Positions 1 to 51,954 of a stretch of 51,954 nucleotides of DNA are shown one piece after another. This stretch comes from Naganishia liquefaciens (Eukaryota > Basidiomycota > Tremellomycetes > Filobasidiales > Filobasidiaceae). The DNA is taken from positions 73,571 to 125,524 of the forward strand of contig BLZA01000046.1 of NCBI GenBank assembly GCA_013423385.1. The letters are read 5' to 3'. Numbering within the stretch: the first letter of the stretch is position 1; every line of letters starts with the position of its first letter. The notes under the pieces were generated by a model that worked only from the letters and a program-made list of their open reading frames with translations, made no database searches and had not been told where the DNA came from. Made by a program: the position numbers and the translations under genes.

Positions 1-958
1 ATAGGTTCCCCGAACTCATCTGGGACTTCTAGTACGCCTTCGGTGACATACACCTCTGCGATCGCTATTGTCAAGTCACCTGGAATCAAGCGATCGTCGA
101 GACTGTCAAGCTTCGTTGCCGCGCTCAACGGTCGAGATTATACGCGTGGTCGTATCGAACCGAAGGGCGAAGGAGCGGACACCTCGAATGTCTCTGCCCT
201 GGTTCTGACAGCGGATACGTCTTCCCTTGACTGCTCCACCTCCCGTAGGGAAGGTTCACAATTGCAGAGATCGGCGACGACCTCGGACTCAGCTATCAGA
301 TACGTTACTCGGTGTTTTCGACAACTCGATGTGCTTGATACCGGAATGGCTTCCTTGAGCGTCAAGACCAACTGGGCATATTGCCGACTGGGCAAGGCAT
401 ATGAAGCCTTCTGCGAGGTTAGTCGACTTCTTGCTCGTTCACTCTGCCTATCCTGCCTCCGGGGTGAATACTCACCGCTCACTCTGCGTATTTACGTTTT
501 CTAGGCCAACACCGAGGGTAGGGACTGGACCAATCGACCGGAACAGCAACGCTTGTTCGCCTTGTTGTGCAACCAAATCGACAGCGATTCTGTGCGCAGC
601 CAGTCCAGCGGTCCGTTGACCACGCGACGATCAGCCCTGCAAAAGCGACTTCAGCGTGCTCGCAAGTTCTTGCTCCTTGTTGATGCCTTTGGGATGTCCG
701 TACTCGACAGCGTGCCCGAAGTCTCGGTCAGTCGAGTCGATGTGCTTCGAATGGAAGAACTACGATCGTTGGCAGACGGTTCATGTATGCAGGCGGAAGT
801 GGACTCGATTCGCCAAAAGCAAGACAGCTTGAAGGGCATGGTGAGTGCACTGTTGAGCTGTATACATTTCTGTGTGTTTATTGCTTTGGTGGCTGATGGT
901 GTCACATTTCTTGGTTTGATAAACCCGCTCTTAGCTTGAGACGCAGAGACCGCAGTGA
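1..958 (+). CDS. Gene G, copy 1, 5'-partial; unrecognised protein
   Basis: I do not recognise this protein. Visible exons are 1-417, 505-840 and 935-958 (stop TGA), with clean GT-AG introns at 418-504 and 841-934. The encoded part is identical or nearly so to gene G copy 2 (20096-21565), which carries the missing 5' end. It is Ser/Thr-rich in the first part, then has helical-looking, Arg/Leu-rich stretches (for example RRSALQKRLQRARKFLLLVD) and ends shortly after RQKQDSLKG. The last exon differs: this copy ends LETQRPQ, copy 2 ends LQTQ. No signal peptide or membrane segment is visible. It is convergent with the SET-like gene. The 5' end lies outside the window. Confidence 0.6.
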
Positions 959-1950
959 AAGTGCAAGTCGTCAAAGCGCGACATGATGTCATCGCTTTGG
1001 CGTAATGTACGGCACGTGCTTCCATCTGTTTGTTTCGCTCTCCACGACTGTTTGTGTATCGCTTTAGCAACCTATGTTTATCGTCACTTGTCGGCCTGCA
1101 CCTTTCAGCCCGAGTTGTCAACTGCACTCCGCATACACAGTAGATTTGGAAATTTGCCCCGAAAGACAGCCTGTCTTTTCGCCCCTGAAACACCATGAGG
1201 GAGATGGAACTCATCCAAGAAACCGCGCGAAGCCTCCTTCTGCCTGAGTAGAGTTTGCTGTCCGCTGCTGCTTTCATTCAGTGACTGATCGATCTTACAC
1301 CAAGCTCCGGATTCATCGGCGCGAACAGGTACATGGCGCACGGGCAACATAGCAGGTCCATTCAGACGTGCTTCCTGATGATGTTGAAAGCCAAATCTCC
1401 CTACTTGAAACCTCTTTGGGGACAAAATAAGGACTCCCATACTGACCCGGCTCGATTGCAAGCTTCTGTAATACCCAAGATGATTGACAGCCTCTAGGCC
1501 TAATGTCCACGATTTCTAGGTGACCTATATACGTTTCTTCGGGGCATTAATGGAACGCATGGGTGTAGTTCCCAGTCGAACCTACACTGCATTCTACAGG
1601 CACCTATACGACCGGTGCTGGACACCTGGAGAGGACTGGCACTGAATGAGGAGGGATATCGAATCCATTAGGGCTGGTTGACAGTCCTTTCTTCGCGCGG
1701 AGCCTCTAAAATACTGACTTTACGATGAAAGAAGTACCATCCAAGGCATAGCATCCAATGAAGGCTAGTTGACACCCCATCTCGGTGAGAGTCACAACTC
1801 GTAGGGGAAAGCATGTTACGTCCGTCTCCATCCCCCTTTCTTGGCATACCCTTCCGAAAAGAGCTATCCGGCCATCAACAGCAAAGGACCCGTCAGTCTG
1901 GTCCCAGCAATTCCCGCGTCCAAAGTCGGCAAGGTACCCAGCCTTTGAGA
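959..1950. other. Spacer between gene G and the SET-like gene, no gene seen
   Basis: This interval matches 19074-20095 in inverse orientation with clear divergence and many small indels. Open frames on both strands are short, are not conserved between the two copies and show no domain. I see no gene here. It is most simply the shared 3' spacer of two convergent genes. Confidence 0.6.
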
Positions 1951-2823
1951 TTATCCAAAGCTGACTCCCTCTCCATAATAGACCAAGATCTGTTGTCCTT
2001 TCCGCACTACCTTGTCCGGATCCTTCGCTCGATAGTTCACCTTGCCGGTAACACGGGCGGTGTGGTGGCTTGGCGTGTGCCGAGTAAGCTGAGAAAAGTG
2101 AAAGGGCGCGTCGGGCTTGTGATTGGCGAACATCAGACGACCCCGGATGGCGAATCGTGCCTTGAGCCAAATTCTTTCGTTTGTCGTATGGTGTCTGTCT
2201 TCATTCACGATTTGCTTCTTCCACCACCAGCCTGAGGATCGGGCTGCTGCCGCGTCTTCAGACCACTCTGACTCGAACACGCAATCATGTCGCTTGCCCG
2301 TCGTCGTCGACCACAGGAGTTCGGCATTGTCTCGTTCATCTTGACTGGCTTTGGCGATAGCGCTTTGTTTGGTGGACTTTGTAGCGAAAAGACCTAGGCT
2401 TCTATACTGGCCTCTAACATTCCAATGCTCGATACGGTAAGGTAGTCCGGTATCTTGGAACAGATCAACGATGATATCACGGACCGTCTGGTTGAACTTG
2501 TCGGTCATCGTTCCGGCTTTCCGATACCGAGCCGGATGCTTTCCAGCTTTACGGCAGGCTTCCAGGAGTTCGGATATGTACCTTACGTCACCCTGTCGAA
2601 AACGCTCCAGGTCGGTATCCTTGTCGACCAGTGTCTTCCTGATGAACTCGGTGGCTTGGAGTTCTCGTGATGGCTGATGCACGGGATTCGTGCCTCGTCG
2701 AACGTTATGGCAGAGGTTGTTGCGTTGTTTCCCCAATTTCGGCATACTGAAGACGTGGATTGTGACGCTCACTGTGCGAGCCGTTGCGTCGCAATGGAGA
2801 AGAACAAGAAGATGCCAATGCAA
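1951..2823 (-). CDS. SET-domain-like protein, copy 1 (best-preserved of three)
   Basis: A single open frame of 290 residues. The C-terminal half resembles a SET domain of the KMT5/SUV420-like type found in fungi. A GLGLFA-like opening is seen as SLGLFATK, the NHxCxPN region as RLMFANHKPDA, and the terminal YYGxG as YYGEGVSFG. The N-terminal half is helical and includes TVRDIIVDLFQDTGLPYRIEH. SET enzymes methylate lysines using S-adenosylmethionine. Here the conserved Cys after NH is absent, so activity is doubtful. The real start could be Met27 (MPKLGK). Two further copies lie at 18347-19073 and 38375-39260, both damaged. The family assignment is by motif reading only; the alternative is an unrelated repeat-borne protein. 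Confidence 0.5.
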   Translation of the reverse strand: MHWHLLVLLHCDATARTVSVTIHVFSMPKLGKQRNNLCHNVRRGTNPVHQPSRELQATEFIRKTLVDKDTDLERFRQGDVRYISELLEACRKAGKHPARYRKAGTMTDKFNQTVRDIIVDLFQDTGLPYRIEHWNVRGQYRSLGLFATKSTKQSAIAKASQDERDNAELLWSTTTGKRHDCVFESEWSEDAAAARSSGWWWKKQIVNEDRHHTTNERIWLKARFAIRGRLMFANHKPDAPFHFSQLTRHTPSHHTARVTGKVNYRAKDPDKVVRKGQQILVYYGEGVSFG

Positions 2824-2855
2824 CCTGGGTGGGTCAGCGACTATCGATCGACAAC

Positions 2856-2893
2856 ACGCGTAACGCGTAACGCGTTAAATAGCCCAAACGCGT
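2856..2893. promoter_or_regulatory. Four ACGCGT boxes upstream of SET-like copy 1
   Basis: ACGCGT occurs at 2856-2861, 2863-2868, 2870-2875 and 2888-2893, just upstream of the SET-like frame. Paired ACGCGT boxes recur at the same relative place in copy 2 (18347-18352, 18354-18359) and copy 3 (38357-38362, 38364-38369). ACGCGT is the MluI cell-cycle box bound by MBF in yeasts; its use here is inference. Confidence 0.5.
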
Positions 2894-3120: not shown

Positions 3121-3904
3121 AAGCTAAGCCAACGTCAAACTCAAAAGGATAGTCGTATATCATGCTCTCTCCTTTCACAGGAGCACGTTCTGATGTGACA
3201 GCTGAACAACTACGTTATCTCTATCTCTGAATCGTTCTTTATGTCAAGCTGGAAAGCATTACTTCTGACATCACGCGATGATACCAATGTTGCCCTGCCA
3301 TTCCCCCAGTTTCGAACACAGCGACCTGTACCAGTATGCTTTTCTTTGTGCGAGAATGTCGTGACAAGCGGTCGAATTCAAGAGTCCCTGTCAGTCATGT
3401 TGAGTGCTATCGTCACCATACCGAATCGTATGTGCGCCTTTCGCCCAGACGACGAGATCTACATGATGGTAGGGGTCACCGACGAGACACAGGAGGGGTT
3501 GCCGACTTGGCGAGCTGGCGAGCTGGATTCGTCCTGGGCGGATCCATGGAAATCGATCCAGGCTGGCACGTTACTCGTTTGTGGCCGTTCCAGCTCGACT
3601 TGAACGGTGACGACTTCTCGGTCCCTCGGATGGCGCGGTTCTTGTTGCACCATTTCCGTTTGCCGGTCTTGACCACCAGCACAGCCTAGTCTGCTGCACA
3701 GCGTTCACGCCTGCTCGTGCTCGTTGGACTGCCTGAAAAGGGCCGATGCTGGACCGTCCATTGATACTGTTGTAGATCTTAGCGGAAGTGCAAGGCGAAC
3801 ATGCGATAAACATGCAAATCTATTCTGCCAAAGCAACTCGTACAACGTTAAAATAATGTCCATCACAACTGAGAGGAGAATCCGATCCGCAAGAAAGCAT
3901 CACG
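3121..3904. other. No gene recognised
   Basis: Between the repeat arm and the NmrA-like remnant. An overlapping pair of + strand frames (3241-3603 and 3336-3689) has no recognisable motif, no intron signals and no second copy in the window. I see nothing I can name. Confidence 0.5.
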
Positions 3905-4940
3905 TCAAGCCTCTCCCTCAAAAATCTTCTTGATCACCTCCGGCCGCGCCTTGAGCGTCTGCCAGAACGTGTCCGCCGGTTTCGCAAGATGCGCGTTGTT
4001 CGGCTTCAGATCGTCACCGCCGTAATCTACCAATACGCAACATCAACGTGACTTCAAGTGTGTGTGTTACGGGGAAGAAGTACTTACACCCGACTTCGCG
4101 GATGCCTCTGTACATCTCTATCACCCGTCCTGCTGCGCGTGAACCAGCAAATGACTGGACGATCGCGTGGAGTTGGGGATCGGGAATGGCGATGTAGGTG
4201 ACTTTCTTTCCGGAGACTATTTGTGCGAGGTTCAATTTAGGATGTAGCAGGTGAGAAGTTTGAGAGAAGGCTGACTCTGTGAGAAAGTCTGGCACATCTC
4301 ATCAGGAGTGATGTACCCCGGCGCAGCATGTACCGCCTTCATTTCCTTCCACCTCTCCTCCCCTTCTCCACCTAGAGCATACTCCAACGGCCCCACCACG
4401 TACTTTCCGTAATCATCCCCTACATCGATATCGGGCAAGGGCGCATTACCCGGCATAGCAAGGCCGAAGATGAATTCGTTGGGATTCGAAGGGCGCGACG
4501 GGGATTGCAAGGTGTAGTTTGTAGAGTACGCGCCGGGTTGGATGTCGAAGATTTTGATGGAAGAGGCGAGGGAACGGCCGTACGGTGTGGCGCGAGCTTT
4601 GACTTCGAAGCTAAGAAGACGTCAGTTAGGATGTGGGATGGAGGGGAATGGACGGAACGTACTTGTTGACTTTGCCGTTGCCTTTGTAAATCTCCTTCAT
4701 GTTTGGTTTCCCAGCCCACGCGTTGACTTGTACACCTGCAGCGGTCACTGCGTCGAATTTGTTCTTTCCCTGCGAGTATTCCTGGAGTACAAGTCAGCGA
4801 AATGAAGGCAAGGGGAGATGGAACGACTCACATGCTCGAATTCGGGGGACTGGTCCTCATAATCACTATTCATCAGACCATGGTGTTGCGTCTGTCGTCC
4901 TCTCGCGTTCGAGAGTCTGAGATGAGCGAGTGCGTAAATC
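3905..4940 (-). pseudogene. NmrA-like NAD(P)-binding family protein, truncated
   Basis: Exons read at about 4663-4781, 4610 to about 4312, about 4236-4088 and 4026-3905 (stop) give an NmrA-like C-terminal half. Recognisable stretches include NAWAGKPNMKEIYKGNGKVN, NEFIFGLAMPGNAPLPDIDV, YVVGPLEYALGGEGEERWKE and IREVG-YYGGDDLKP. Family members are Rossmann-fold redox-sensing or reductase-like proteins of about 300 residues. Missing here is the N-terminal glycine-rich nucleotide-binding motif, which I cannot find upstream on this strand. The join near 4236-4312 does not close in frame with any good splice pair. A piece at about 4835-4940 (NSDYEDQSPEFEH) splices to the first exon but could belong to something else. 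I call it a 5'-truncated, probably dead gene; an unusual intron layout is the alternative. Confidence 0.6.
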
Positions 4941-5149
4941 TGGTCATGGAGATCAGTGAGTCGACTGAACTGAATCAGGGGGTTATGGGGGACTGGGCGT
5001 ACTACAACTTCTCCGTCCGGATTTCAAATTCCGATCAATACGTTCCCGCCGGTTCTACGGAAGGTGCGGCTGATGGGAACCCGTTGCCGCCGAGTTTAGT
5101 GGCCCAACCTGGAAACGCAAAGCACTCCCTCCAACCCGTAGCGTATAGT

Positions 5150-5610
5150 GAGTTCATCTCTTTGCTGGTGGTTGAACGTCGTTCCACAGCTCAAGCCATT
5201 CTCAATAGACTCTGTCAGGTCGGGCTGAATGAGTTGCGATTAGCTAAGCTAGCCGCACTAGCGTGTGAAGCACATATGGCTAACAAGCGATGGCCATTTA
5301 GTATGATTGGTTATCGTGTTTCCGTTTATACTGCTATTATATGTTACATATAGAATATCCACTGTCGGATTGAATAGATATACCACGATGATATAAAAGT
5401 TTCACTTGCTTGGTCAGCGATTCCAGCGTATATACTCTTCAATTCCTGTGGAAATACCGGAAAAATAGATAATCCTGGACAGCAACGTATCGCTCGACGT
5501 TTTACGATATCTGGTCGCTCGAAGTTTCCGTTTTCATTTGACAATTAGCTTTGTCCTCTTTAGCGCCTCCTTGCTTTTCCCCCTAAGGCTAGAAGTGCAG
5601 TAATCACCCC
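5150..5610 (+). repeat. Dispersed repeat D, copy a
   Basis: One of four copies of an AT-rich repeat of about 450-550 bp; the others are near 25256-25820, 40735-41200 and 49270-49860 (-). Shared landmarks in order are GCTCAAGCCAT, GTTATCGTGTTTCCGTTT, CTGCTATTATATG, GCATATATACT-like words, a GAAATACCGG-like word, TTTTTAGCG and TTTTCCCCC. It has no coding capacity. An old solo LTR or a non-autonomous element are possible identities, but no target duplication is evident. It lies beside the broken end of the NmrA-like remnant. Confidence 0.65.
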
Positions 5611-6956: not shown

Positions 6957-9900
6957 CTATATACCGTACTTCATGGCTAAAGAGCTGAGGACGACTCTGT
7001 GGAAAAGAATCAAACGATAGAAAAGTAGTAAAAACGATCAGCGCTTTCATCAAACGGTAGGGAGCAGGAGTCAGTGTTTGACTTACGAAGTGCTGGACAA
7101 CGCCATCGCTAGAGCGGCCCAAACCGGGGGTAACCTTGTATTCCCAAAAGGGTAAAACACTCCGGCAGCTAGGGGAATGAGAATGATATTAAAGATACAA
7201 GCCCAGGCAAAGTTGAACTTTTGACGACTTCGCTCGAGCGGAAGCGGATGTTATAGCAGGTAGATTGATAAAAACATGCACGAATAAGGAGGAATCAGGG
7301 CCTCGATGGTGATCAGAACATAATTATCGCCGAGCCAAAATAAAAGCCTCTGACTCACCGGTAAACTTTCCGCGATATACGTAGTAGAGCCGGGATACCT
7401 TTCAAGCTCGAGTTCAGGAGTACAAAGTCGGCAGAGGCAATACTAGCTTGAGCACCATGGGATAGGGCTACTGCTACGTCTGCAGTGGCTAAGGCAACTG
7501 AATCGTTAAGCCCATCTATGTGTGTAAGAAGGAGAAAACACGTTGGTGATCAAGATGATTACTGGGTAATGAGACAGAGCGCCTGGAAAAACGCTATGAA
7601 TGCAAGCACTTACCTCCTACAAACATGACAGTAGGCTTGCCGTTACCGCCCCGTCGTTGCCCCAACCATTTAAACGGAGTCAATCCCCTCCGATGTGATG
7701 CGTCTACAGACCGCATTGCTCCTTCCTGCAGCCTGGCAATATGTTTGCCCTTTTCTTCTGGAAGAACCTCGGCAATAACGTTCTCGTCTTCGAATCCCAA
7801 CTGTGCAGCTACAGCTCGCGCAGTCTGCTTGTTATCTCCCGATAACATGTGAACCCGAAAGCCGGAGGTTTTGAGCTGTTGAATCACGTCCGTTGCTTCT
7901 GGACGAAGCGCGTCGGCGAGAGCTAAACAGTAGCCCGAATGGAATCCCTCGTCCTCTGATGAAGAATTCTTGACTCGGTACGCTGAAATGACTACAGATT
8001 TCGCTTGCGATTTCCAGCGGTTCAATATTGTTTCTTCGTCTGTCCTAAGTTTCTTCATACCGATATCACGCATGAGACGTTCGTTTCCTATCGCGAAGTC
8101 GATCTCCTGAGAGCCTTGGTCGAACTCGACAGTAAAGCTGGCTTGGATACCTTTGCCTGAAATCTCCGCTATCGATTTGGCCTCGAGCCTGATTCCGTCC
8201 TGCCGGTGATCCTGCAGTAACAGGGGGTTTTCTTTTGCCCACTCGACGATCGCTGCTGCCAAAGGGTGTGAAGACCGGCTTTCACTGATCAGGATCGCTT
8301 GTAAGATGGTGTACTCTGCCTGAGCATCGGTCAACGCCAGCGTATTTTTAGTAGCAGAAGAGACATCGGTAACTTTCAATGCGCCACCTTGGGTCAGAGT
8401 ACCGGTTTTATCAAAAACAATCTACGATAGGAAGACGCGTGTATGAAACCCAGTTCAGCACAGCTACCAGAAAGATTGCTTGAGAACAAGGCGACCTACA
8501 TCGGTAGTCGCAGTGGTTCTTTGAAAAGCTTCGCCTCCTCCGGCAGCTAAGATACCAGTGACTGCAGCTATCCCTGTACCAACAGCCTACAAAGAAGAAA
8601 CATCAACCTATGTTGCGGCGTCTTGGAAGAAGTTGCCGTCCCTAGACATCTTACCTGAGCGCAAGGGGCAGCCAAGCCTATTCCACAAGGGCAGGCGACG
8701 ACGACTACAGCAATCGCACTGTTGTACCGATAGGAGGAGAATCATGAATTCGTTTAGCAGGAAAAGCGAATGACCAGGGCTTTGAGAATCATTTGAATGA
8801 CATCTTATGACGCCTCCGACTTACAATTGAAGAGCAAAGAAAACACGACCACCGAGATCCCTTTCACCCATTGGCAAATATTCTTCTGAGAGCGAGCCCG
8901 ATAACGTTACTGCAAGCCAAATAACGAGATCCACAATGGCCAGATACACGATCACGGGCACGAACACGCCGGTAATGCGTTCAGCCAGCTTTTCGATGGG
9001 CGCCTTTTTCGAAGAGGCATTGGAAACCGCGCGGATAATACCCTCGATCATCGTCTCCTGCCCAATCTTGACCACTCGAACAGCGACGGCAGCGTTTTGA
9101 TTCACCGTACCGGTCATGACTGTATCTCCGAGATTCTTCTTGACGAGCAGTGCTTCTCCAGTGAGACTGGATTCATCAAAGCCACTCGCGCCGTCCACGA
9201 TGATGCCATCCGCAGGGGGCATATCTCCAGGTCGTAAAAGAATGACATCGTCGTATTCGAGATGATCGACAGGGACTGTTATCGGGTCCGCACGTGAAGC
9301 TAGCGTTTGAGGAGAAAGCACGTTCTGCCTGATGCTTCGATCATCGTCAGTGGAGAGCGCACGCTTCTTGCCGAGCCCCGTTGGTGAATCAGCCGCAGCC
9401 GATCCATCAAGCCCAAAGTCGGACAACAACAACGCGGTTGCTGGGCGGAGTGAGCCTAGTAAAGCGATCGCGCTCGTAGTCTACCAAGGGAGAGTTCATT
9501 GCATGCCGCAAATCAAAATCAAGGCTAGATGTTCTCGGTACACACTCGATGTTCAAGTACTTACCTTGGATTTAGCGAATGCCTCCAACACCCGCCCACC
9601 TAATATGAACATAATCAAGAAGACAGACGAGTCAAAGAATGTCGCCCGTCGTTTCGTCATACGCATATCCCCCTGAGGTGCACCGTCCTTCAGGTCAAGG
9701 ATAAGCATAGCCAGAGAGGCGAAGTAGGCGGTTGTGGTCGAAAGGACGACCAACAAATCCATGGATCCAAATGTAAAGAGGGATTTCCAAGTAGATCTTG
9801 AGCTAGCTGTTCTTCGATTTGTATAGTTCCCGGTTTTCAACGCTCGAATAAACGGTCGCAACCTGTGCCATGTCTTTATGTAGAAGATTCTGTAGAGCAG

Positions 9901-12094
9901 ACAGCCGGTTAGCCTTCGGTTCCTTTCAACATTAATAGGAATCAGAGTGTCGGATTGGGAAAGGACTAAATCAAACTTGCCTTCCGACCCCGAACTGAAC
10001 CAAGGTCGCCAAGATCCACAACGCTAATGTAGCACGATCGACTCCGGACCATACGTAAGTCTCTACCCACACCCTGAAAGGATGTTCTTGATTCAAAAGC
10101 AGCATTCCAATGATTCCGCTACGGATCAAATTGGCAAGAGGGCATCGAGATGAGTATGCCACATCTTTGACCCCGCGGTATCGAAAAAAGTAGAGTGCTC
10201 ACATGACAAATGTCGGTATAGAGGCGATGAAAGAGAACAGAAAAGGCCAGAAGAGAACCCATCTTTCTTTCCGCTGGATCTCTCTTCCTCTGTCAGCTGC
10301 GGTAACCGGTTTCACCACCCTAGCGTCGAACTCGGGTGCGATGTCAGAAATCTGTTGAACTAGATGACGAACAGTGTATGGATCTCGAGGTCGATAGGTG
10401 ATGGTGCAATAATCACGGTTTCCCGTAAAAGGCTCATATGCCACCAGGTTCTTCGAAATGCTTCCCAGGTATGAGTTGAGCTTGCGGACACAATCACTAC
10501 GAAAAGGAAATCCTGTTAGATCTCTTGATCCCTTTACTACACACGCTAGGGAACACAGAGGCGACCAACCTGCAAAAGATTCCCTCAACACCAATCCGTA
10601 CCGTCCTGATCTTGGATTCGGAAGTTGGTCGCTGCATCGGCCTAGAGTTTCCGGCTTTGTCCTCGTTCTCCACCAAGATTGTCGATATCACATCCGCTTC
10701 AAAACCGATGTCTTCGATGAGTACCTTGACTTCTTCCGCCTTCATTTCAGCCAGGTGAATTATATCAGCGGAAGCCTCGAGTAGGTTTACGTCTACCTTT
10801 CGGATACGAGGGTCGTTCTTCAATTCTTCAGAGATGGAGGTGGTACAAGACGCGCAGGTCATACCCGAGATCGATAGGATTGTTTTCCATGTCTCCATCT
10901 GAGAGGATGTTATAGTCACCCCATTCCCTCTTTCGCTCGTAACAGGAGCATTTAGCAAGATTTCGGAACCAAAGCCAGCGTCTTTGATCATGTCATTGAT
11001 CGTTCCCGCCGCGAGAAGGCTTGGATCGTACACTACCGTTACTGACGCTGCCAAGAGGTTGACGTCGACTGTCCGAATGCCAGGGTTGTTGGCCGGAGCG
11101 AGTGCTGAGGCGATGGATCCGGTGCATGAACTGTAAAGAGAAGACAGCAGTATAGGATCAGCATTCTGGATAGGGATCCAGGGCAGAAACCGGACACCGC
11201 CACCAGAAGTCTCGGTGGATCTGCCGTATCTACAGCAGGAGAGAAAAAGACTACGTACGCGCATGTCATCCCCTCCACGGATAATGTAAGCTCATAGAGT
11301 CCTCTTGCAGAGCCCGTTTCCGTTGCGATCACGCCTCGCTCGTTCACGATGTCGCCGTCTTCCGCTCTATTGCTGTTCTGACAGAGGGTACAGGACTCGA
11401 GATGTCGACGAGCCCTCTCTTCCTGTCTGTGTCGACGATCCTGGTCAGTGCGCCAAGGAAGCAACCAAGACATCACGGCCGGAGAACGGTGAGACGGTTG
11501 AAGTGGTGTTCGCTGGCGACTGAATGTGGCAGGCAGAGCAAGCCCTGTCTCCATGTCTTCACCGAAAGGTCTGTCTGTGGAGCAATTTGACAGAGACTCT
11601 ACATTAAAGCCTCCTCCATCCTCGAGATCCTCGATGACGTCTTTGACAAGCTGCTTGCAAAAGTGGCGGGAGATCTTCCTGGGACCTTTACCGGACGAAT
11701 GTACCGAAAATGATATGGTATGGTCGAGCCAGGAGATCTTTAAATTCGTCATGCAAGCGTTGTACCGTCCCAATTTGCTGGTGGGTTGTTTTGCGTAGGG
11801 TTCAAGTAAGGTTTCGATATGTTGCACGCATGAAGGGCAGTGCATGTTCGGGACAAACAGCACTACTTGTCCATCGTCGTCCATGTTGATCTGACACGAC
11901 CAGACACTTTTTAAGCGAACAAGTAAAGCTTTATGGAACATCGGTATGTCACTCACATGTAACGTTTTGTGACCACTCACGTCTAAGTGTTCTTTCCCTT
12001 TCCGATTGGTTACGAGAAGGGGTTTCGACAACTTGGCACTGAAATTCGGTGAGCGTTCGCGTAGCTGAACTGGGAAATAACTCGGGCCCGCCAT
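6957..12094 (-). CDS. CCC2-like: Cu(I)-transporting P1B-type ATPase, CCC2/ATP7-like
   Basis: Twelve exons close in frame to 1368 residues: 12094-11259, 11130-10570, 10496-10203, 10118-9981, 9889-9565, 9480-8825, 8718-8655, 8586-8500, 8421-7614, 7515-7359, 7227-7087, 6996-6957. It pumps Cu(I) across Golgi or plasma membrane using ATP. The N-terminus has four HMA-like domains: MHCPSC (about 84-89), MTCASC (276-281), MTCASC (369-374) and a degenerate FCSDC (464-468). The core has TGEALLV, CPC (946-948), DKTGT (Asp991), SSHP, GDGLND (1257-1262), and the TM7/TM8 copper signatures FNFAW..IFNIILIP and MALSSTSVV. The fourth intron has a GC donor (GCAAGT). The start could instead be Met71 at 11884, just before HMA1. 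Its divergent neighbour is the multicopper oxidase, with shared upstream motifs. The reading frame looks intact. Confidence 0.93.
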
Positions 12095-12207
12095 CGAGGC
12101 AGATTACATTATATAGACATGTCTAGCTTCCCAGTTTATGCCCCGCCGAAGACTCTTCAGAAACAGTTCACGCTTCACGGCAGCTTTCGAGCCAGTCAAC
12201 TGGTGAG

Positions 12208-13095: not shown

Positions 13096-13139
13096 CGCAA
13101 CCAGCAAAGAGAGTGAGATGGTTGGACTATCGATTTCTA

Positions 13140-18094: not shown

Positions 18095-18346
18095 TCGCCC
18101 TGGTCCGTATCAGATACCTTGATCTAGGTGCAATCGATTCTCGGGGGAGTTGCTAAACGCCGTACGTATTCTGCTCCCCACCTGGATGGTCCCCTGATTA
18201 ATGGCAATGTCGAGTGTTCAGCAGGGGATTTCTAGAAACAAATATCAATCAGGCATGCGTAGGCCGTTTGTGCCTCTCTTCCTCCCTGGACTTATCTGTT
18301 GACTTGCACTCTTTTGGTCTCGCGAGGGGGAGCGTTTCGGCCATGG

Positions 18347-31850: not shown

Positions 31851-31901
31851 CTTTGGCTGCCATCAGTATCGGCTGGCTTGTCTACCCAGACTACGTCTAG
31901 C

Positions 31902-37635: not shown

Positions 37636-37738
37636 TTCCCAAGGCACCGAAGCTACGACGACGGCGCAAGTGAAGCGAGGCGCGGTTCTGGTGCAGTCCG
37701 GAACAGCATGGGAACATTACCGCTGTCCTGCAGAATGA
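37636..37738 (+). pseudogene. ArsH fragment
   Basis: About 100 bp closely matching ArsH exon 2 (27329-27432), including an identical run of about 25 bases encoding the SPEQHGN region. Small indels break the frame, and none of the rest of ArsH is nearby. It is a leftover of an ArsH duplication or rearrangement, in the same orientation as the intact gene 10 kb away. Confidence 0.8.
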
Positions 37739-38084: not shown

Positions 38085-39260
38085 TACGTCATGGTATTCC
38101 CCGAACATGTCTGGTTCGGATCAAATACCTTGATCCGGATGCAATCGTTTCTCGGGGAAGTTGCCAACCGCCGTACGTATTCTACCCTACACCTGGAGAG
38201 TCCCTTGTCTGATGGCAAACCCGAGTATTCAGCAGGGGAGTTTCAAGAAACGGATATAATGCAGACAAGTAGGTCGGTTGTGCCTCTCTCCCTCCCTGTA
38301 CTTATCTGTTTATTTGCAATCTTTTGCTCCCGCGAAGGGCGCGTTTTGGCCATTAAACGCGTAACGCGTGTCGTCTGTCGATCGATATTGCCTTATTCAC
38401 CCAGGTTGCGTTCGCATCTTTGTTATCATCTTCCTACTTCTTCCAACTCAGACAGAACGCTTGACACGCTGGCCTTCGGGAAAACAACGCAACGACTCCT
38501 CAATGACGTTCGGCGGGGCACGAATCCCGTACATCAGCCTTCGCGCGAGAACTCCAAGCCACCGAGTTCATCAAGAAAACTCTGGTCGACAAGGGTATCG
38601 ACCTGGAACGTCTTCGACAGGGTGATGTAGGGTACATCTCTGAATCTTGGTAGCCTGCCGTAAAGCTGGGAAGCACCCAGCTCGATATCGAAAGCCGGAA
38701 CGATGACCGACAAGTTCAACCAGACGGTCCGTGACATCATCGTCGATCTGTCCCAAGATACCGGACTACCTTTCCGTATCGAGCATTGGAATGTTAGAGG
38801 CCAATATAGAAGCCTAGGTCTTTTCGCTGCAAAGTCCACCAAACACAGCGCCATCGCCAAAGCCAGTCAAGAAGAACGAGGTAATGCCGAACTCCTATGG
38901 TCGACGACGACGGGCAAGCGACATGATTGCGTATTCGAGTCAGAGTGGTCTGAAGACTCGGCAGCTGCCCGATCCACAGGCTGGTGGTGGAAGAAGCATT
39001 TCGTGAATGAAGACAGACACCATACGACAAACGAAAGAATTTGGCTCAAGGCACGATTCGCCATCCGGGGTCGCTTGATGTTCGCCAATCACAAGCCGAC
39101 GCATCCTTTCACTATTCACAGCTCGCACGGCACTCCCCTCGGCACCATACCGCTCGCGTTAACGAGGAAGGTTAGCTATCGTCCCAAGGTCCAGACAAGG
39201 TAATAAATGAAGGACAACAAATCTGGATTTAATATGAGGCAGGAGTCAACTTAGGGTGAA
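38085..39260 (+). pseudogene. SET-like gene, copy 3, degenerate
   Basis: Third copy of the SET-like gene with its upstream ACGCGT pair (38357-38369). It keeps the N-terminal text lost from copy 2 (VRRGTNPVHQPSR), but the frame shifts several times, and the final YYGEG region is lost to a stop. The middle 166 residues (38703-39203) remain open and about 85-90% like copy 1. Unlike copies 1 and 2 it is not followed by gene G. It appears to be the oldest or least constrained copy. Confidence 0.6.
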
Positions 39261-40734
39261 ACAGAATAACGCGTATGGTGTCGACTTTGAATGCGGGCAT
39301 CCCGACTTTGGATGTAGGATCGCTCAGGTGGAACTGAGGACCCGTCTAGTGTTCTTGACAGGGTAGTATTTCCTATGATGGTCTTGTCATGAAGAGAGGA
39401 AAATACGGAAGTAATGTGTTTCCCCTCATCAGGTTCGCTGCCGATCTTCCTAACTCAATAATGCCAGCTCCACAGGATGCTGCGCCCTGGATCGTCTCCT
39501 TTTGCCGCACAGATGATATCACACCTTTCGGCCAAGGCGAACAACGCAGGACTGCAATCCGCCCCGAGAAGTCTGATATGGCTCCGCTTCTGGTACCCGA
39601 CCTCGCCAGACACCGAGCGCACTGTCCAGACCCTATTTGGGTCAGTCGCATCTTTATATTTGACGTGAGAAACGGAGTAAGTCTAGAGGAATTTATCATG
39701 ACGCGGGGGAATAGGGTGGTCGAGGGAAGTCAGTCACAATCAAAAAGGAAGGACGGCCGAGCGGAACGCTGCAAGATGTAAGCGCAGACGGTATAAGCGC
39801 AGGAGATCTGCATAGCGGAGATGGGGTACAGCCTGCAGGAGGTTAATAGGAGGATTCCCGACATAATCTCAAGACTCTGAGCCAATCCAGCTCTTGCTCC
39901 TCCGTTACACCGGATTGCACGTTATGCCCTTTGCCTCGAGTGGAGTGACGAAAGCTTCGGCAAGGGTTCTGAGGAAGTGTCGGAATTAGCGTGGAAGCCT
40001 TCCCTACCGGCAGTCTTCTTTTTAAGATTCACTAGCTACTCGACAGCTGGTGCTACCCTGTAAGCCATAGGGTCTATCGGCGAAGCTTTCCCATGCATCG
40101 AGATTTGATGGGGATGCTTTCCGGTGCATGGGATTTTATTTCAAAGCGGTCAAAAGCAGTTTGTCTATTGCACATAATACCGTGTGCCTGCTGTTTTCGT
40201 ACTTATGCTTCCCGATAGATGCTAGTGCACTGAAGGCGGAGGGTACGAGTTGGCTTTGCTAAGATCGTGCACGGGTCTTCCTACGGGATATTCTGGGATT
40301 ATTAGCTCACACCACGCACATCATCATATTCCGGGATACAGATTGGACGCTGGGTACCGTGACCTGCGCTTTCCTGCCTGTGAAAGAACAATTCAGGCGC
40401 TCGCACCCATGAATCTCGAGCAGAAGATGAGGACGAAGATCCGAGAGACACCCCTCAGACTTTCGGGAAAGGAGCCCTAGAAACGGATATAAACAAGTGG
40501 AGGAATCGTGATCGGGCAATCATTCAAATGCCCACCCGAAACCTGTTGAGTACGTCTGGAATATTGTGATTTACATTAATCAATTGTGGAATGGTGCGCA
40601 TTAGCATCCAGGGAACAAGAAAGGACAGCTGTATCGGTATCGAAATTCAGGGCATATTATGTGTGAACGCGGAGAAGCGGCTGAGCACGCGATTTGAACA
40701 TTGCCGGAAGAGCTCAGCCCCAGGCTTTGTCCCG
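39261..40734. other. No gene recognised
   Basis: Frames at 39389-39781 (+) and 39373-39699 (-) overlap antiparallel and have no motif. The interval includes repeat E copy 2. I see nothing else. Confidence 0.5.
40180..40390 (+). repeat. Diverged repeat E, copy 2
   Basis: Partner of 17440-17650 in the same orientation. The best-conserved part is around AGCTCACACC and the GACGCTGGGTACCGTGACCTG stretch near 40305-40370. Confidence 0.45.
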
Positions 40735-41200
40735 TTGTCCCGTTGACTCGTGTTGGTTAGTTGTATTGCCGAGATACGGCTTGCGTGGTATTAGCCATGA
40801 ATCTAGAACGTTGATGTAACTGGTTCCGTATTATGGTGCTTCCACCTCTCAAACCATTCTCAAGAGACTTTCCCCGATGAACGGAATGATTTGTAATTAG
40901 CTCGTCCGCTCGTGAAAATGCATAGCCATTCAGTATACGCACTTATAGTCTCGTTTATATACTGCCATAAGATGTTAGATACTCTTCAATATCGGATTAA
41001 GTAAATCTACCTCGGTAAAACAAGTATGGACTTGCTGTACCTTTGTGTCTAAAGTGTAGTATCTTCAATCCCGAAGGAAAATTCTTTAAAAGAATCCATC
41101 CGGACAGCGAGATCCGTTCAACCTTTCATGGTTCTCGGTCGCCCCAACCCGTTTGCGCTTGATAAGGTCTTCGTCTTCCTTAACATCTTCTTGTTTACGC
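40735..41200 (+). repeat. Dispersed repeat D, copy c
   Basis: Third copy of the AT-rich repeat, opening with GTTGACTCGTGTTGG as in copies b and d. It is more diverged after about 41000. It is not next to a kinase copy. Confidence 0.6.
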
Positions 41201-41614
41201 CTTCATACATGGCTGGAGCTCGATTTCAGTCGTCTAACCGAAGTAACAATTTGTGATTTGGGACCTCGCGGCAAACAACCTTCCTCCCGGTTCTACAAAG
41301 TGGTACGTAGTGCTCACCTGACTTGATGACTGCCAATCGAAGATGCACTTGTTGAGCCAACGGATCCTCACTTGAAGTGAAGTCAAAAAGGAAAGAAACA
41401 TCGTACATCGATCTAATTTGCGTGTGTCACTAGACTAGAAACGGCTACAAATATCAACCAAGAAGGCTTGCGTTGATGCTAATTTCCTACTGAAGGCAGA
41501 GCCATCTGCGACTGCAGAAGTCTATAGAGAGTATCTTACAGGTCACAGCTGAACGACTGTTGTTCAAGTGTTGCGTATATGATGGCTTCAGCATGCGCTG
41601 ACAAGAAGGGGCGA

Positions 41615-44600
41615 TCAAACGAGAAATTTGTATTGCCAAGTCAAGTTAACACCGAAGGCAATAGCCACGACAGGGAGCACGCTGACTACCTCTCCCAAGC
41701 CAGCGTATGCGGGTGGGATCCTGACCTTGACGAAGGCACCGGAAGCCAGCAGGAGGGCAAAGATGTTGTAGGTAATCGACCATGCAAGTCCAATGATGAC
41801 ATGGAACCTGCTGAGCTGCGCGAGTCGAAGGGCAGACAAAATACTGGTTTGAATGTCGTTGGCAAAGATAACCGCTCCCGCTGCTCCTTTGGCCGCTTCA
41901 GTTCCACCAGAGATTGCAAATGCCGCATCAGCCTGAGCGAGTGCGGGTGAATCGTTGCTGCCGTCGCCGATGTAGCAGACTTTCCTGCCTTGCTGTTGAA
42001 GCCGACAAATGGCCTGCAACTTCTGAGTGGGCGACTGCTGTGCATACGCTTTATCGGACGGAATACCGAGTTGACGAGAAAGTTCTGAAACGGGACCAGG
42101 AAGATCGCCACTGAGAACGATGACATCCTTTCCCATGTTTTGCAATTGTCGCACTAGATCGAAAGCTTCGGTTCGGGGTTGATCTTGAAGTGCAAAGTAG
42201 GCGATCAAAGTGCCGCCCAGAGTGACGTAAAACATCGTGTACCCAGCAAGTTGACCCAGCGCTTCTCGCTTCCGTTCCACAACCTCACCGCTTTCGTCAA
42301 CAAAGCTTTTACTACCGCCGCGCAACTCGAATCCTTGATACGTGGCCTGCATACCTTGACCGGGAACATTTTCAACTTCGAGTCCTAGATGCGTAATCTT
42401 GGACGATTCCTGGTTGACAAGCCATTCCGAGACAGCTTTTGCGACGGGATGAGGTTGGTTTTGCACAAGAGCTGCGATTAGGTTAAGAGCTCTGTCGACA
42501 AGGAAGGAATCGACGACAGCAAGTTGCCCTTGGGTAAGCGTTCCTGTTTTATCGAAGGCGACGACGTCGACGTGGCGAGATGCCCACAAGCTTTCGTTTG
42601 AGCGGAATACGACGCCGTTTCGTAGTCCGATTTGCATGACGACAGCAGTAACGAGGGGAATCTATGTGACGAAAAGCCAACAGCGATGAGTGAGAATAGA
42701 CATCAACAATAAAGAATTTACCACGAGAACATACCACAAGCACCAACGCACAAGGGCAAGCCACCACCAGAACCGCAATAAAGTACGTCAAACCCGAGAC
42801 GGCAGAATCTTGCGGAGATTCCTTCCTGACAAAGCGGCCAACCACGGACCAGGCGATGAAGGCGATACACGCACTAACGACTGATACGGGCAGAATAACA
42901 GCTGCGGTCCTATCCGCCAAGTCCTGGACCGACGAACGGCTCTGCTGAGCATCCGAAACCAAGTTTTGCAGTCGTGACAAAAAGTTTTCGTGCACCAGTC
43001 GAGTGACTTGAAAGTCGAGTTCGGGACCGACGACGATACTACCGGCGATCAAGTTGTTACCGACTCGTTTGGGTACCGGCACGCTTTCGCCCGATGCAGA
43101 TGATTCGTCTGCCCATGATTCGCCCTTGACGACGATGCCGTCAGTCCCGACCGCTTCATCTTTGTGCACGCGGATGATGTCGCCGTACTGCAAGAGTCGA
43201 ATATCCACCGGTTCGGTGGTCCCATCCACTTGAACAAGGATGGCCTGATCGATTTGTAGGTTTTGCAAAGCACGGATCGCAGAACCCGAAGACTTTCTGG
43301 CGAAAGCTTGAACAGCATGTCCAACCAGCACAAGGGTAAGAAGCAGCGCAGGTGTCTCGAAAAACGGTTCGCCAAACTCGATGCCGCCCAGTTGAAAACC
43401 ATAGGCGCAAAAGGAATAGACGTATGCAACGATTGTGCTAACGCTAACAAGGAGCGAAGTATCGACTTGCCGAAGATAGAGAATGGATCGTACCGAGGAC
43501 GCAAAGATGGATTGACAGAGAAGCATGATGATCGAGGTGATTCCGAGGGAAAGACCGTTGTAGATGTTTCGCTTCCGATGGTCGAGATCGGCCCAAGCAA
43601 AGACAAGGACTGGTACCACACAGATTGAAGAAGCGATTGATTTGATGCAAGCTCGGACGAGATCCTGCTGGACGCCGTCGGACAGATCCATCGCTTCACG
43701 CCAGGGCAACAAGCTGGGCTGGTACTCTTTGAGCAAGTCGATTGCTGATCGAGGATCCATGGTGAAAGACAGGATACAATATCCCTTGTTCTTGGTCATG
43801 GTGATACCGTTCGCCTCCAATGCCTCGGGGTCTGGCTTAACGCCAAACTTGACGGGAAACGAATGAACCTTCTTTCCATCATCTTTGGCAGAACCGAAAG
43901 CCGTTGAAGGAGTGATTTCGAACCCAGTTGCCCGAGCGATATATCTCGAGATTGCTTCAGGACCGATAAGTTCCGGGTCGTAGAGTAGTGTAACTTTGGC
44001 TGCAAAGTAGTCGAAGTTGGATTGATGGACCGAGCTCAGCATCGACAGGGCACGATTTACTTTGCCGGTACAAGAGGCACAATCCATACCTTTAACCTGG
44101 AGGCAAAGGGTTCGTAAAGACGCCGGAGAAGGCGTATTCGCCTTCCCGTCAAGTCCTTTTTCGGTGCTCGCTTCACCCTTGGCGCTCGAACCATCTTTAG
44201 ACTTCTCGCAGTATTTCTTCGTTTCGATTGAGCAGGACGCAGATGCAGACGTTGCTTTGATTATTTCCGCCGTTCTATTAACGGTGGTGGCTCCGGATTG
44301 CATTTTTAGCAAAGGCGTAAAACAGCAGCTCTTCTGAGCGCAAAATTGTTCGAAAAGTTGACAGCAGTATCGCAAGATGCGGTCGGTGTCGGCCGAAATC
44401 ATGGGAGAGAGTCGGGCAACGAATGGATTGTACCTCGATCCTGCGGGAAACAGGCAAATCGTAAGGGCATGTAACTATGCAAAGCACAGTAGGACCACGG
44501 ACTCACTATCACCGGTGAGCAAAAGAGGTAGACAACAAGAACAGATAGGTTCTATACTCGTGATAAAGATGTATATCAATAATCGGATGAATGCGCAAAG

Positions 44601-45856
44601 GCTGATCAAGACATGCTCACCTGCCTTTCGATCCTCATCACCCGCATCACCCCCTGTATCAGTTGTATAATCCTTCTCATTGTCACAGCAGGAGAGCTTG
44701 GCGTTGATGACACTGTTATCATCACTACAGCCAACCGCTTTGGCAAGATCAGCATCTGCCTCCTTCTCGATGTGAGAGTCGGACCTTGAAACAGCAGCTG
44801 TATCGCTGGTGATAACCATCGAAGGCTTGGAATGTTGCTTTGAGCGACAGTCGACATTGACGGGGGCGACTTCGAAACCGATAGCGAATTGACTGTCTTC
44901 CTTGCTGCAAGAGCCTTCTTTCGCAGCTCCAGTATCTGGCTTCGAAGGTGCGCAGTCTTGATTCTTCGCGCAACAGTTGGTCTTGACATGAGATGTGCCG
45001 TCGACAATTGTTGCAGGTTTCGGACCCTTGACCGAACATCGGGCGGATTCGGTAGACGATTCGGTAGCAGATGTGATTGCTCTATGAGTCTTCGTAAGGC
45101 CACAGCTGGGTTGAACAGGGGCAAATTTCGCGGTGGAGGCCTTCGAGAAACATTCTGAAGTGATATCCGTAGCAGGCCTTTGGGTCAAACAGATTCCAGA
45201 AGAATCAATGCGTTTGCCGCAGACGGAGACTTTGTCTTTGTCGCAATTGCAAATAAGGCGTTCCGAACCGGCAATATCGTTGATAGCTTGGCACCAGTCG
45301 ATTCTGGTGGACGCTGAAGTCTTGTTGCCGGGACTGGCTTTGCTGTTGGAAGATTGGTCGACTGTGTTTGCATTGAAAAGAGAACCGCTTTCTCCAGCTT
45401 GCCCGTCGCAATTGAGCTTTCCTCCCTTATCCGAGCAACGTCGGGACATATTCAGTTCAGATATAGCTTCAGGCTTTATTAACAGACCTAGCAAGAGAAG
45501 GAGGAAAAGAGTAAGTGATTAGGTCATTGGATGTGAGATCGCGCGCAGGTATGCATACCTGGAACGGGGTCTTTTGGTTCTTCAGACCGAATAGAGTCCA
45601 ACTTCTTAGTGCAGCACCCGGTTTTGGCAGGAGCTACAGGAGGTGCACATGTAATATCGAATGGATGGGCGTCCGAGGTCTTTTTCAAGAGTTCAGGCAC
45701 TGGCATACTGGTCTTCGAGGAACAGCACGAGGTGGATTCGACGGCGATCGACGAGCTGTCTGTAAATAACGGACCGCAGAGATTTTTTTGACGGCGGCAG
45801 GTTTGACAAGCGGAGGTGTCGTCTGTGTGCGATGTATAGAACTGATCGTCTGTCAT
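41615..45856 (-). CDS. PCA1/CRP1-type P1B metal ATPase, Cys-rich N-terminus
   Basis: Four exons, 45856-45559, 45487-44621, 44440-42735 and 42661-41615, close in frame to 1305 residues. Family members (yeast Pca1, Candida Crp1, Aspergillus CrpA) export copper or cadmium at the plasma membrane. The first 480 or so residues are hydrophilic and rich in Cys pairs (STSCCSSK, TGCCTKK, TNCCAKNQDC, LSCCDNEKD, RYCCQ, KSCC). One HMA domain follows (MDCASC, 507-512). The core has SGESVPVPK, CPC (950-952), DKTGT (Asp994), HPVAKA and GDGSNDSPAL. The C-terminal membrane pair reads SITYNIFALLLASGAF and AGLGEVVSVLPVVAIAFG, the AGLGE..SVLP form typical of Pca1/Crp1 rather than Ccc2. It is divergent from the PQ-loop gene. 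Cu versus Cd selectivity cannot be read from sequence. Confidence 0.93.
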
Positions 45857-45909
45857 GCTTATAAATGCTAAGGTGGAATACTACGAAGACGTTGTTTGAG
45901 CCTATCCCC

Positions 45910-45919
45910 GCATTTTTGC
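45910..45919 (+). promoter_or_regulatory. GCATTTTTGC, near-match to the copper-module motif
   Basis: One mismatch to the GCATTTTCGC core found four times upstream of the other ATPase and the oxidase, here 54 bp upstream of the PCA1-like start. The short length makes chance plausible. Confidence 0.35.
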
Positions 45920-46301
45920 CTTATTTGCGCCAAGCAAGACTCAACATCATGCGGTTACAGATCGATGTAAAACGATCTCGCACGTTCGCTTGGCAGTAGT
46001 ATAAGTGCGATCCGCGGATCGCCGGTCATTCACGGAGATAATCACAAAGGGGATTATAGTTCAGATAAGCGCGTCTCCCTTTTCAGGTCAAACGAAAAAG
46101 CGAGAGGACCAACAGAAGCGCAAGGATTGCAGGCGCATTCGGCTTTGTGAAGGATGAAAGTTTGGGGGTTCGGCTCGGATTCGGAAGCGGCAGAACCCCC
46201 AAAGTTGATCGAGCCACACTTGCATAGCATTCGAGAGAGGTAGTTATCAAGCAGGTCGATCCTATTGCGTAGTTGGCTCCCATCTCCGGCTTCAGTCTAG
46301 T

Positions 46302-49269: not shown

Positions 49270-49860
49270 GATTTTCGCGGTAACAAGTGGTGAGGCGCTT
49301 TTCACCGTAGTTGCTGATCCGAGAACCCATATTACTTCCGCGCTAAAAAGTACCAAGATGGTTATCGAATGTGAAGGAAGACGTCGTGGGACCGGGCATC
49401 ATGAATCGTCGAGCAATATATCGCTTTCCAGGATTAAATGGGTTTCCGGTATTTCCTCGGGATGTGAAGAGCATATATACTCTGGAACCGCAGGCCCAGG
49501 TTTACGTTTGGTTCACCGTGATCTGTCTGGTGATTCCGACCGTAGATGCCGAATATATATCATATGGTAGCAGTACAAACGAAAACACGATAACTAGTCG
49601 TATGTAATCACCTGTTAGCCCTGTGCCTCTCGTGCGCAGGAGAGCTAGCTTATCACGACTCATTCAGCTCGACCAGATAAAGTCTCTCAAGAATTGGCTG
49701 AGTAGCGGAAACGGAGCCATACAGACCGTTCCTGGGGCTATCGGTTGGTGTAACGTAAACTGTATACCGCCAAACCAACGCTCGAACGTGAGTCAACAGG
49801 ATTGAGGCATGAGCTTTCTGGCCAAGTGTTCAGAATTAGATATGCAGGCAGAATCAAGAT
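49270..49860 (-). repeat. Dispersed repeat D, copy d
   Basis: Fourth copy, minus strand, collinear with copy b relative to the adjacent kinase. It is therefore part of the inverted block, but diverged to perhaps 65-75% identity while the neighbouring kinase is nearly identical. Confidence 0.7.
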
Positions 49861-50111
49861 ACTCTGTAGAAACTCGAGACATGTCTATGAAAAATTCCGG
49901 CTTGAGTTGAAAGGCGGTTAACGCAACCGCCTGCCTACATGTATTGCACCCTTCCATTGGTACCGCTGTATATCTACGCTTCTTAATCGATGATAACCAG
50001 TAACATTCCAAATTCCATTATGGTGCATTACAATTACAATAATACATAGCAGAGTCCAAGGAGCACGGGAGCTGTGTCAACTGATTGCCTGACACAATTG
50101 CTAGGACGCGA

Positions 50112-51954
50112 CTACAACCCCTTTCTGGGGTTCTTTGCCCGAAGCTTGAGAGGTGGAGTAGGCGGATGCAAGCAAGTGTCTGATATGACTTCAGACGACA
50201 AGGAGGTACGCCCATTGAACCTAAGACATGAAGCACGAAACAATAGCTCATAAGCGAGGCATGAAGGCCAAGAGATAAAGGAAAAAGACCTACCGCCTGA
50301 TCTTGGCTTCCAGCGTAGCTTCTCTCGCTTGGATCATGCGCTCCCTGGCATGCAGTGCCTTCTCGATAGACTTGATGGTGTCTTGGCGTCGAGCCAATTC
50401 ATGCCGCTTCTCCACCAAAGCTCGCTCTTTCGACTCCAAGCGTGCCTCTCGCGCTATCAACTCTACTCCCGTACAATGACAAGTGAGTCCCGCCATATGA
50501 TCGTTTAGGACCCGGTTGCTGTCTTGACACCTAGATAACACGAGATGATCAGTACTGTACAAGTTGCTCAAGCGACGTAACACTGCTACACGACTCGATC
50601 CAATGATGGGCCATTCTTGTTCTTCTCTTACCTTTCCGGATCGTCTTGTTGAAACCAGGGCATTTGCAACCAACCAGCGATCGTGGGAGACGCCAAGAGA
50701 TCCGCTGTCGAGGGACGTCGAATGGGCTACAGAGAGAAATGGCAGAGGATATCGATCGTCAGTATATTTCTCAACGATGGCCGACAACCACTTCAGGACA
50801 GAAGTAAGGAAGCCAGAAGTAAACTTACCTCGATGGCTAGTAGCATAGGTACCAAGCTGTTCATTTGGGCCGAGTGACCGGCAGGAAGAAGGAACTCTCT
50901 TGCCCTCTGAACGCCTCGGAGGCCGTGGTTTGGGATTCTGAAAGGCAGCCACAGCACGATACGTTTAGAGGCCCGATCAGTCTCGTGTTTACAGTGATAT
51001 ATTCTTGCACGTGAAAGCACAAGCAACACTTTGACTCACCTCAACGTGCAGAGTTCGAACAATATGCAGCCCAGATTGAAAATGTCGGCTTTGTGATCGT
51101 ACGGTTGACCGGCAACCAGCTCCTGTAGGCATAAACAGAAACGATCATTCAGCATCGCTTCAGATCAGCTTTACCATACGCGCATGCCCTTTCCTATCTC
51201 TGGACTCACCGGAGGAAGGTAGCCTGAAGTCTAGATGGTTGAACGAAAGTGACCTTGAATCAGCCAAAGTGCGATGCCACCGAGCCAACAAGGACGAGGC
51301 TCAAGGGAGACCTACACCGACGAAAGACGTAGTAACCGTCAGCCCGTTCGCCATCACTTTGGCCAACCCAAAGTCGGCTAGCTTGACCTGACCCGCGCCG
51401 CTAAGGAGAACTGTGACAAACAGACAGGCAGGGATCAGTTGTATACCTAGATGCTGATGCTGAGAGCGGAAAGGTACGTGCACCGATAGCCAAGGTGACA
51501 CTGAGGGACAATGTTAACTCACCGTTCTCGGGTTTCAAGTCACGATGTAACAGAGTATGTCGTATACCTTTATAAGAGTGATGGCAGTAATGTAACGCCA
51601 AGAGCATCTGACAAAAGATGGACTGGATACGATGATGAGCAATCGGGTTTTCTATCAGGTCGATTCGCAAGGATGGTTAGCAGGGCTCCTTTTCGCTTAT
51701 AGGTGACAGTCATATAGAACCGGGCAGAGTTTCCGCAACGACACTCGCGCTTCCAGATCAAGATGGTTCCCCACCTCAACACTCAACGACCCTCGAGACT
51801 CACTGCGTGATGCTGCCTCATCTATCATCGACCGCAGAATCCCCTCCGGAACAATACTCCAGAATGATGAACCGGTTCGTTCTGGTCATCTCCCATGCCG
51901 TGAAGCCACGATGTTCGGGTGTACCAGGTCTTGACCAATGCGATTTTCTTTCTC
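50112..51954 (-). CDS. NIMA-like Ser/Thr kinase, copy B, 5'-partial
   Basis: Inverted copy of the kinase at 22921-25013, lacking the glycine-loop exon because the window ends within exon 2. Exon and intron sequences are nearly identical to copy A. It keeps Trp (TGG at 50655-50657) where copy A has a stop, so its kinase domain runs on into the coiled coil and the same C-terminus (PPTPPLKLRAKNPRKGL). The exon 2 donor lost one G and exon 3 gained one C; these cancel and the join stays in frame (SRKNPIAHH against SRRKPIAHH). The last 60 bases show several one-base changes in homopolymer runs that break the frame and may be sequence errors. Confidence 0.8.

Follow-up and report, generated by a model that had tools for sequence, protein, structure and literature searches.

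Strain N6 of Naganishia liquefaciens is a yeast tolerant of heavy metals, with a draft genome of 19.44 Mb that was assembled with Platanus from Illumina data including 4-10 kb mate pairs, with some Sanger gap filling and 0.10% gaps; misassemblies were corrected with the 10-kb mate pairs (PMC7679087). The stretch analyzed here, called the window, comprises 51,954 nucleotides and corresponds to positions 73571-125524 of a scaffold of 147,914 bases (contig BLZA01000046.1, referred to as C22). The guanine-cytosine (GC) content of C22 is 49.7% compared with 53.4% for the N6 genome (PMC7679087). The one Cu/Zn superoxide dismutase (SOD) exon located in the genome, on contig C3, agrees at 128 of 128 residues with PDB entry 3ce1_A, the SOD of Cryptococcus (now Naganishia) liquefaciens N6, which makes this species very probable as the source. 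The two ends of the window match, in inverted orientation, opposite parts of a block that stands complete in its interior, a layout for which the original prediction, made from the letters of the window, had offered two structures, a circle of about 54 kb and a chromosome in which the block occurs a third time. With the genome searched as a whole (19,446,910 bases in 28 contigs), the window very probably belongs to a linear nuclear scaffold and is flanked at either end by a gap lying inside another copy of a dispersed block.

The block measures about 7-8 kb and reads in the order kinase, repeat-rich middle, gene G and 'SET'-like gene. Using the copy inside the window (copy 2) as a ruler, C22 was found to carry four block copies, numbered 0 to 3, in the orientations +, +, - and +, two of them near-full and two interrupted by runs of N, together with fragments. 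Their parts are as follows.

C22:34540-41654, + strand: copy 0, the oldest copy, matched in pieces at 71-82% to copy 2
C22:68949-76678, + strand: copy 1, interrupted by the left N run
Window 1-2655, - strand: gene G/'SET' arm of copy 1, an inverted match; copy 1 continues left across the N run to its kinase end at C22:68949-70506
Window 3201-5182 (3201-4425, 4454-4875 and 4977-5182), + strand: flank of copy 1, recurring in direct orientation at C22:130492-133456 with 91-96% identity
Window 18369-25780, + strand as a window feature (C22:90600-99500, block in - orientation): copy 2, free of gaps and opposite in orientation to copies 0, 1 and 3
Window 21045-23173, + strand: block middle; apart from copy 2, it is seen in copy 0 alone, at 70-74%
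Window 22424-22667, + strand: array of an 8-base tandem repeat, 30.5 copies of ATCAATCC, within the block middle
C22:122911 into the right N run, + strand: copy 3, of which the kinase arm and the post-block flank alone are visible
Window 49341-51954, - strand: kinase arm of copy 3, an inverted match to copy 2; the scaffold continues right across the 4,967-base N run
Window 38111-39255, + strand in the window (C22:111681-112825, block orientation -): fragment of another block copy, with the 'SET' gene and flank
C22:30073-32995, both orientations: fragment located with the copy 2 ruler
C22:78752-79165, - strand: fragment located with the copy 2 ruler

Diverged copies of one block are therefore clustered in one region of C22, which is the arrangement of a segmental duplication. 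In this subtelomere-like region, the distance of the copies to one or the other scaffold end, nearer or farther, is 17-118 kb, and copies 1 and 3 are direct repeats spaced 53,721 bases apart. Outside C22, probes from the middle, the 'SET' gene, the kinase and the flank returned a single match of 169 bases, on contig C13, in a genome search whose counts are lower bounds.

The inverted pairing of the window ends was examined by aligning the window with itself using the Basic Local Alignment Search Tool (BLAST). On the left, positions 1-2655 match 21044-18369 at 93.2% identity, and on the right, positions 49341-51954 match 25780-23174 at 91.5% (E = 0.0 for both). The predicted pairing of base 1 with 21044 and of base 51954 with 23174 was thus recovered at the same coordinates, and the part of the internal block with no counterpart at the edges is, as had been claimed, 21045-23173, a length of 2,129 bases. 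The edges had also been described as an exact inverted image of the internal block, and this does not hold at identities of 93.2% and 91.5%, with differences that are unevenly distributed. In the left arm, no difference was found over the 737 bases adjoining the window edge; when the arm is split at 20250, a cut picked post hoc from the identity profile already seen, 5 of 794 columns differ on the inner side and 179 of 1,886 on the outer side (Fisher p = 4e-22). The right arm shows, over the terminal 300 or so bases of the window (51650-51954), 11 single-base indels and two substitutions relative to copy 2; the next 600 or so bases carry one difference, and divergence climbs further in, with 38 differences in 24101-25050 and 174 in 25051-25780. 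The terminal one-base indels are likely poor-quality sequence with the look of gap filling, because they run together at a contig edge and Sanger gap filling was reported for the N6 draft (PMC7679087). On the window side of each gap, then, the edge copies are identical or nearly so to copy 2, and their far ends differ from it by about 9% (copy 1) and about 20% (copy 3). Near-identity on the window sides together with diverged far ends accords with exchange between the copies, or gene conversion, in the recent past, either of which would keep the inner parts alike. Near-identical repeats of this kind would also be a plausible reason for a short-read assembler to have stopped at gaps.

The window edges coincide with runs of N within C22 and not with the ends of the scaffold. 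A run of 3,064 bases (C22:70507-73570) directly adjoins the left end of the window, and one of 4,967 bases (C22:125525-130491) adjoins the right end. To the left of the left run, the kinase end of the block occupies C22:68949-70506 in + orientation, placed so as to continue into base 1 of the window. To the right of the right run, C22:130492-133456 matches window 3201-5182 in direct orientation in three pieces (95.5%, 91.3% and 92.8%), and in copy 1 window 3201-5182 comes after the block. Since the kinase end lies beyond the left gap and a flank of the copy 1 type beyond the right one, each window edge falls within a further block copy or leads into one. The ends of the window match in inverted orientation because both stop at gaps inside these copies. 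The gaps themselves would hold block middles. Of the two structures first proposed, the chromosome with an additional block copy is thus the one borne out, as both gaps lead to block or block-flank sequence and an older copy is present at C22:34.5-41.7 kb.

The lengths of the N runs bear on the order of the joins. Gap lengths in scaffolds are usually derived from mate pairs, and they are for this reason a partly independent measure. For the linear order, the left gap (3,064 bases) is predicted at 3,216 bases with the copy 2 ruler or 2,899 with the copy 0 ruler, and the right gap (4,967 bases) at 5,350 or 4,815, respectively; the copy 0 predictions are differences between alignment positions, with 545 bases of the copy 1 flank added for the right gap. 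Joining the window ends into a circle, and the chromosome without it, would instead predict gaps of 2,129 and 6,437 bases. The observed lengths agree with the linear predictions within 3-8% and miss the circular ones. A separate circle of about 54 kb, made up of two block copies in inverted orientation and two single-copy regions, around which C22 would have been mis-joined, has some features in its favor: the ends would close with 2,129 bases missing, as many as the block middle of copy 2 comprises, and copies 1 and 3, as direct repeats 53,721 bases apart, would release such a molecule by recombination. However, the scaffold leads from both window edges into other sequence, the sequence beyond the right gap is a diverged copy (91-96%) of window 3201-5182 and therefore different DNA, the gap lengths do not fit, and the block is present in four copies instead of two. 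Such a circle is considered highly improbable. A plasmid collection searched with window 40000-46000 gave no match.

A linear molecule could also be joined differently at the repeats. Inverted copies within one molecule can recombine and flip the DNA between them, so it is conceivable that the kinase and 'SET' ends are paired otherwise than in the scaffold, with inter-copy segments flipped or with both orders present in culture. The identity or near-identity of the edge copies to copy 2 where the joins fall would allow for this, but the gap lengths agree with the pairing of the scaffold, and misassemblies were corrected with 10-kb mate pairs (PMC7679087), making another pairing rather unlikely. 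This alternative is compatible with the placement of the window edges in further block copies.

Several observations weigh against the placement of the window in a gapped linear array, or limit how much can be drawn from it. The N runs are unproven as assembly gaps, and another contig, C26, also starts with N, although whatever their nature the two runs of C22 lie inside one scaffold. The copies differ on the outer side of the left gap, where copy 1 is at 98-99% to copies 2 and 3 in the last full 100 bases and agrees with them at 88-91 of 98 positions in the two preceding blocks. To the right of the right gap, the flank is only 95.5% identical to the copy 1 flank over the first 1.2 kb. As the outer sides of the gaps are not identical between copies, identity alone does not fully explain why the assembly broke there. 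Moreover, the joins of the arms, even in gapless copy 2, cross near-identical DNA, which a short-read scaffold could mispair, and the analysis was carried out on the assembled sequence. Finally, 28 contigs were searched here compared with the 59 scaffolds of the published N6 draft (PMC7679087), with total lengths that agree. The 8,031 N bases of C22 represent about 40% of the amount expected from a gap rate of 0.10% over 19.44 Mb.

Telomeric signals are found at both ends of C22. At the left end, CCCCTAA occurs four times at positions 14-41. At the right end, TTAGGGG occurs twice at 145700-145717, followed by a reverse transcriptase (RT) frame of 665 codons on the - strand (region C22:145700-147914; RVT_1, E = 4e-18) that reaches the scaffold end and is cut by it. 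In a genome search that scored the best candidates, all 15 matches to this RT, that of C22 included, start at most 10,850 bases from a scaffold end, on the + strand at left ends and on the - strand at right ends, and many adjoin CCCCTAA repeats. The right end of C22 is a telomere-associated retrotransposon without long terminal repeats (non-LTR), with those 15 matches all near scaffold ends. An end signal on both sides, by telomere pattern or RT, was detected in 11 of the 28 contigs, among which C22 is the smallest, or in eight by the pattern alone. Altogether, C22 is a segmental-duplication array with telomeric signals at both ends and metal-resistance genes between the copies.

Not all telomere-type repeats are at scaffold ends: of the 79 matches to the pattern, 15 either lie farther than 15 kb from an end or do not point outward, so that false joins, insertions or old fusions exist in these scaffolds. 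This, and the presence in C22 of two N runs inside repeats, would be consistent with a chimeric C22 in which the repeats link the ends of two chromosomes, which would make it subtelomeric without being a single chromosome, but the gap lengths fit the order of the scaffold. A chimera is regarded as a doubtful possibility, and under it the window edges would still be gaps inside additional copies of the block. Neither a chimera nor another pairing of the block ends disturbs the core conclusion, and the chances given to them are not exclusive of it. Internal or wrong-way telomere repeats were located at C11:550980, C13:7592, C14:133604, C17:1168448, C24:403580, C25:232461 and C27:56733 and 178550.

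The content of the DNA between the block copies was examined by Pfam scans of 40 frames of the window and of all six frames of about 18301-26200 and 26001-35999 (with + frames from 17201). The genes recognized are as follows.

Window 7597-12103, - strand: pieces of a first heavy-metal P-type ATPase (HMA, E1-E2 and hydrolase domains, Pfam), probably forming one gene
Window 13943-14632, + strand: multicopper oxidase exon (Pfam, E = 1.5e-4), matched in the ATG frame 14039-14635
Window 27214-27429, + strand: exon of an NADPH-dependent FMN reductase (Pfam), putatively ArsH
Window 29190-29528, - strand: exon of an SBF-family transporter (Pfam), putatively ACR3
Window 41615-44402, - strand: second heavy-metal P-type ATPase, in two frames (Pfam), originally named 'PCA1-like'

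The first ATPase and the multicopper oxidase are placed between copies 1 and 2, and the FMN reductase, the SBF transporter and the second ATPase between copies 2 and 3. The metal-resistance content put forward in the original prediction is therefore present as regards the two ATPases, the oxidase, the reductase and the transporter, but the names ArsH and ACR3 are presumptive. The first frame of the second ATPase is 95% identical to a Naganishia albida sequence over 77% of its 617 amino acids, and the top hit of a P-type ATPase exon in the database reached 99%. Within the genome, the main exon of the second ATPase matches itself, a sequence on C17 at 32% and the first ATPase at 30%. Relatives of the SBF transporter and the FMN reductase exist on C6 and C1, indicating that these functions are not confined to C22. 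A second piece resembling the FMN reductase was also observed, with window 27330-27420 matching 37637-37727 in direct orientation at 86.8%, and the arsenic cluster may hold two related genes. A tRNA scan of the window found none. For C22 beyond the window, the scan took in 20 pieces drawn from 19 of 38 listed long frames. Pfam domains were recognized in 12 of the 20: those of LTR and non-LTR retroelements in seven, of P450 in two, and of copper amine oxidase, alpha-amylase and NACHT/NPHP3 in one each.

The genes of the block itself are less readily named. In copies 1 and 2, they appear as follows.

Window 23096-23311, 23445-23603 and 23716-23808, + strand: parts of the protein kinase of copy 2, matched by Pkinase in three frames
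Window 18303-19070, + strand: 'SET'-like gene of copy 2, a frame of 256 amino acids with an N-terminus unlike its relatives
Window 1954-2874, - strand: counterpart of the 'SET'-like gene in copy 1, a frame of 307 amino acids

The assignment of one block end to a kinase is supported by the piece at 23096-23311 (E = 2e-12), but the pieces at 23445-23603 (E = 2e-4) and 23716-23808 (E = 0.017) fall below the Pfam cut-off. Apart from the kinase, the block frames gave no Pfam match other than a weak one of the coiled-coil type, RNase_Y_N, below the cut-off. The name 'SET' given to the gene at the other end was not confirmed. Its protein has no Pfam match at E <= 0.05 and no match in a single-sequence search of the PDB; a profile search of the PDB gave one weak and partial match, 8ga6, at profile positions 184-224, and the AlphaFold model, with a mean predicted local distance difference test (pLDDT) score of 38.7, is too poor for a fold search. 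A homology search returned 13 matches, one of them C22 itself and none with a Pfam domain. Five of the 13 are named by organism, three from Naganishia friedmannii and two from N. adeliensis. Two of the N. friedmannii relatives (P0130 and P0132) are probably on one contig of 117,148 bases, and clustered copies of the 'SET'-like gene may be general in the genus Naganishia.

Repeats associated with metal-related genes have been described in other fungi. Examples are an ARR3 array at a Cryptococcus telomere (PMC6895784) and the CUP1 arrays of Saccharomyces cerevisiae (PMC4232551). Like these, C22 combines fungal repeats and metal-related genes with a potential for recombination-driven change in copy number. 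In contrast, the repeat of C22 is the kinase/gene G/'SET'-like block, the metal genes being the filling between copies, and the copies stand in both orientations; amplification was not observed. Two inverted repeats that separate two single-copy regions are known from circular genomes of the chloroplast type and from the 2-micron plasmid. This is the layout that the window would have with its ends joined, but C22 is linear, with more than two copies and with telomeric signals at its ends. Circles of extrachromosomal DNA (eccDNA) carrying CUP1 have been described in yeast aged under copper (PMC6890164). Direct repeats around copper genes could similarly release a circle from C22, although such a unit would span 53.7 kb from one diverged block copy to another and its excision is proposed here from the layout. 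As for the right-end RT, CNL1 of Cryptococcus neoformans is placed at chromosome ends, flanked by telomeric repeats and closest to MoTeR (PMC12810828). The C22 element resembles CNL1 and the MoTeR elements of Magnaporthe in having its 15 genome matches near scaffold ends, many beside CCCCTAA; the comparison covered the RT alone, within its own genome.

A further reading goes beyond the placement of the window edges. C22 might be a complete linear minichromosome of 148 kb, running from telomere to telomere and carrying metal resistance in a copper-tolerant deep-sea yeast, in which inverted copies would let the copper and arsenic segments flip and direct copies 1 and 3 would allow duplication, loss or circular release of the 53.7-kb segment; taken as a whole, this is held to be somewhat unlikely. 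The recombination steps belong to the main reading as well, as an inference from the repeat layout. Recombination between inverted copies could flip the segments between them, and recombination between direct copies 1 and 3 could duplicate, delete or amplify the 53.7-kb metal segment or release it as a circle. A loosely worded literature search for the karyotype of N. liquefaciens gave no paper on the subject by title. Two other short scaffolds, C12 (176,050 bases) and C21 (324,132 bases), have telomere or telomeric-RT signals at both ends, and further very small chromosomes are possible in this genome.

As repeat biology and as assembly behavior, the finding is ordinary. It removes a false lead, as a 54-kb circle is not called for by the sequence, and it illustrates that contigs ending inside near-identical repeats can look like a molecule closed on itself. 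Left standing is C22 as a candidate metal-gene chromosome of 148 kb, or the end of a chromosome, in copper-tolerant N. liquefaciens; its repeat layout opens changes in the copy number and orientation of the metal genes to direct testing.

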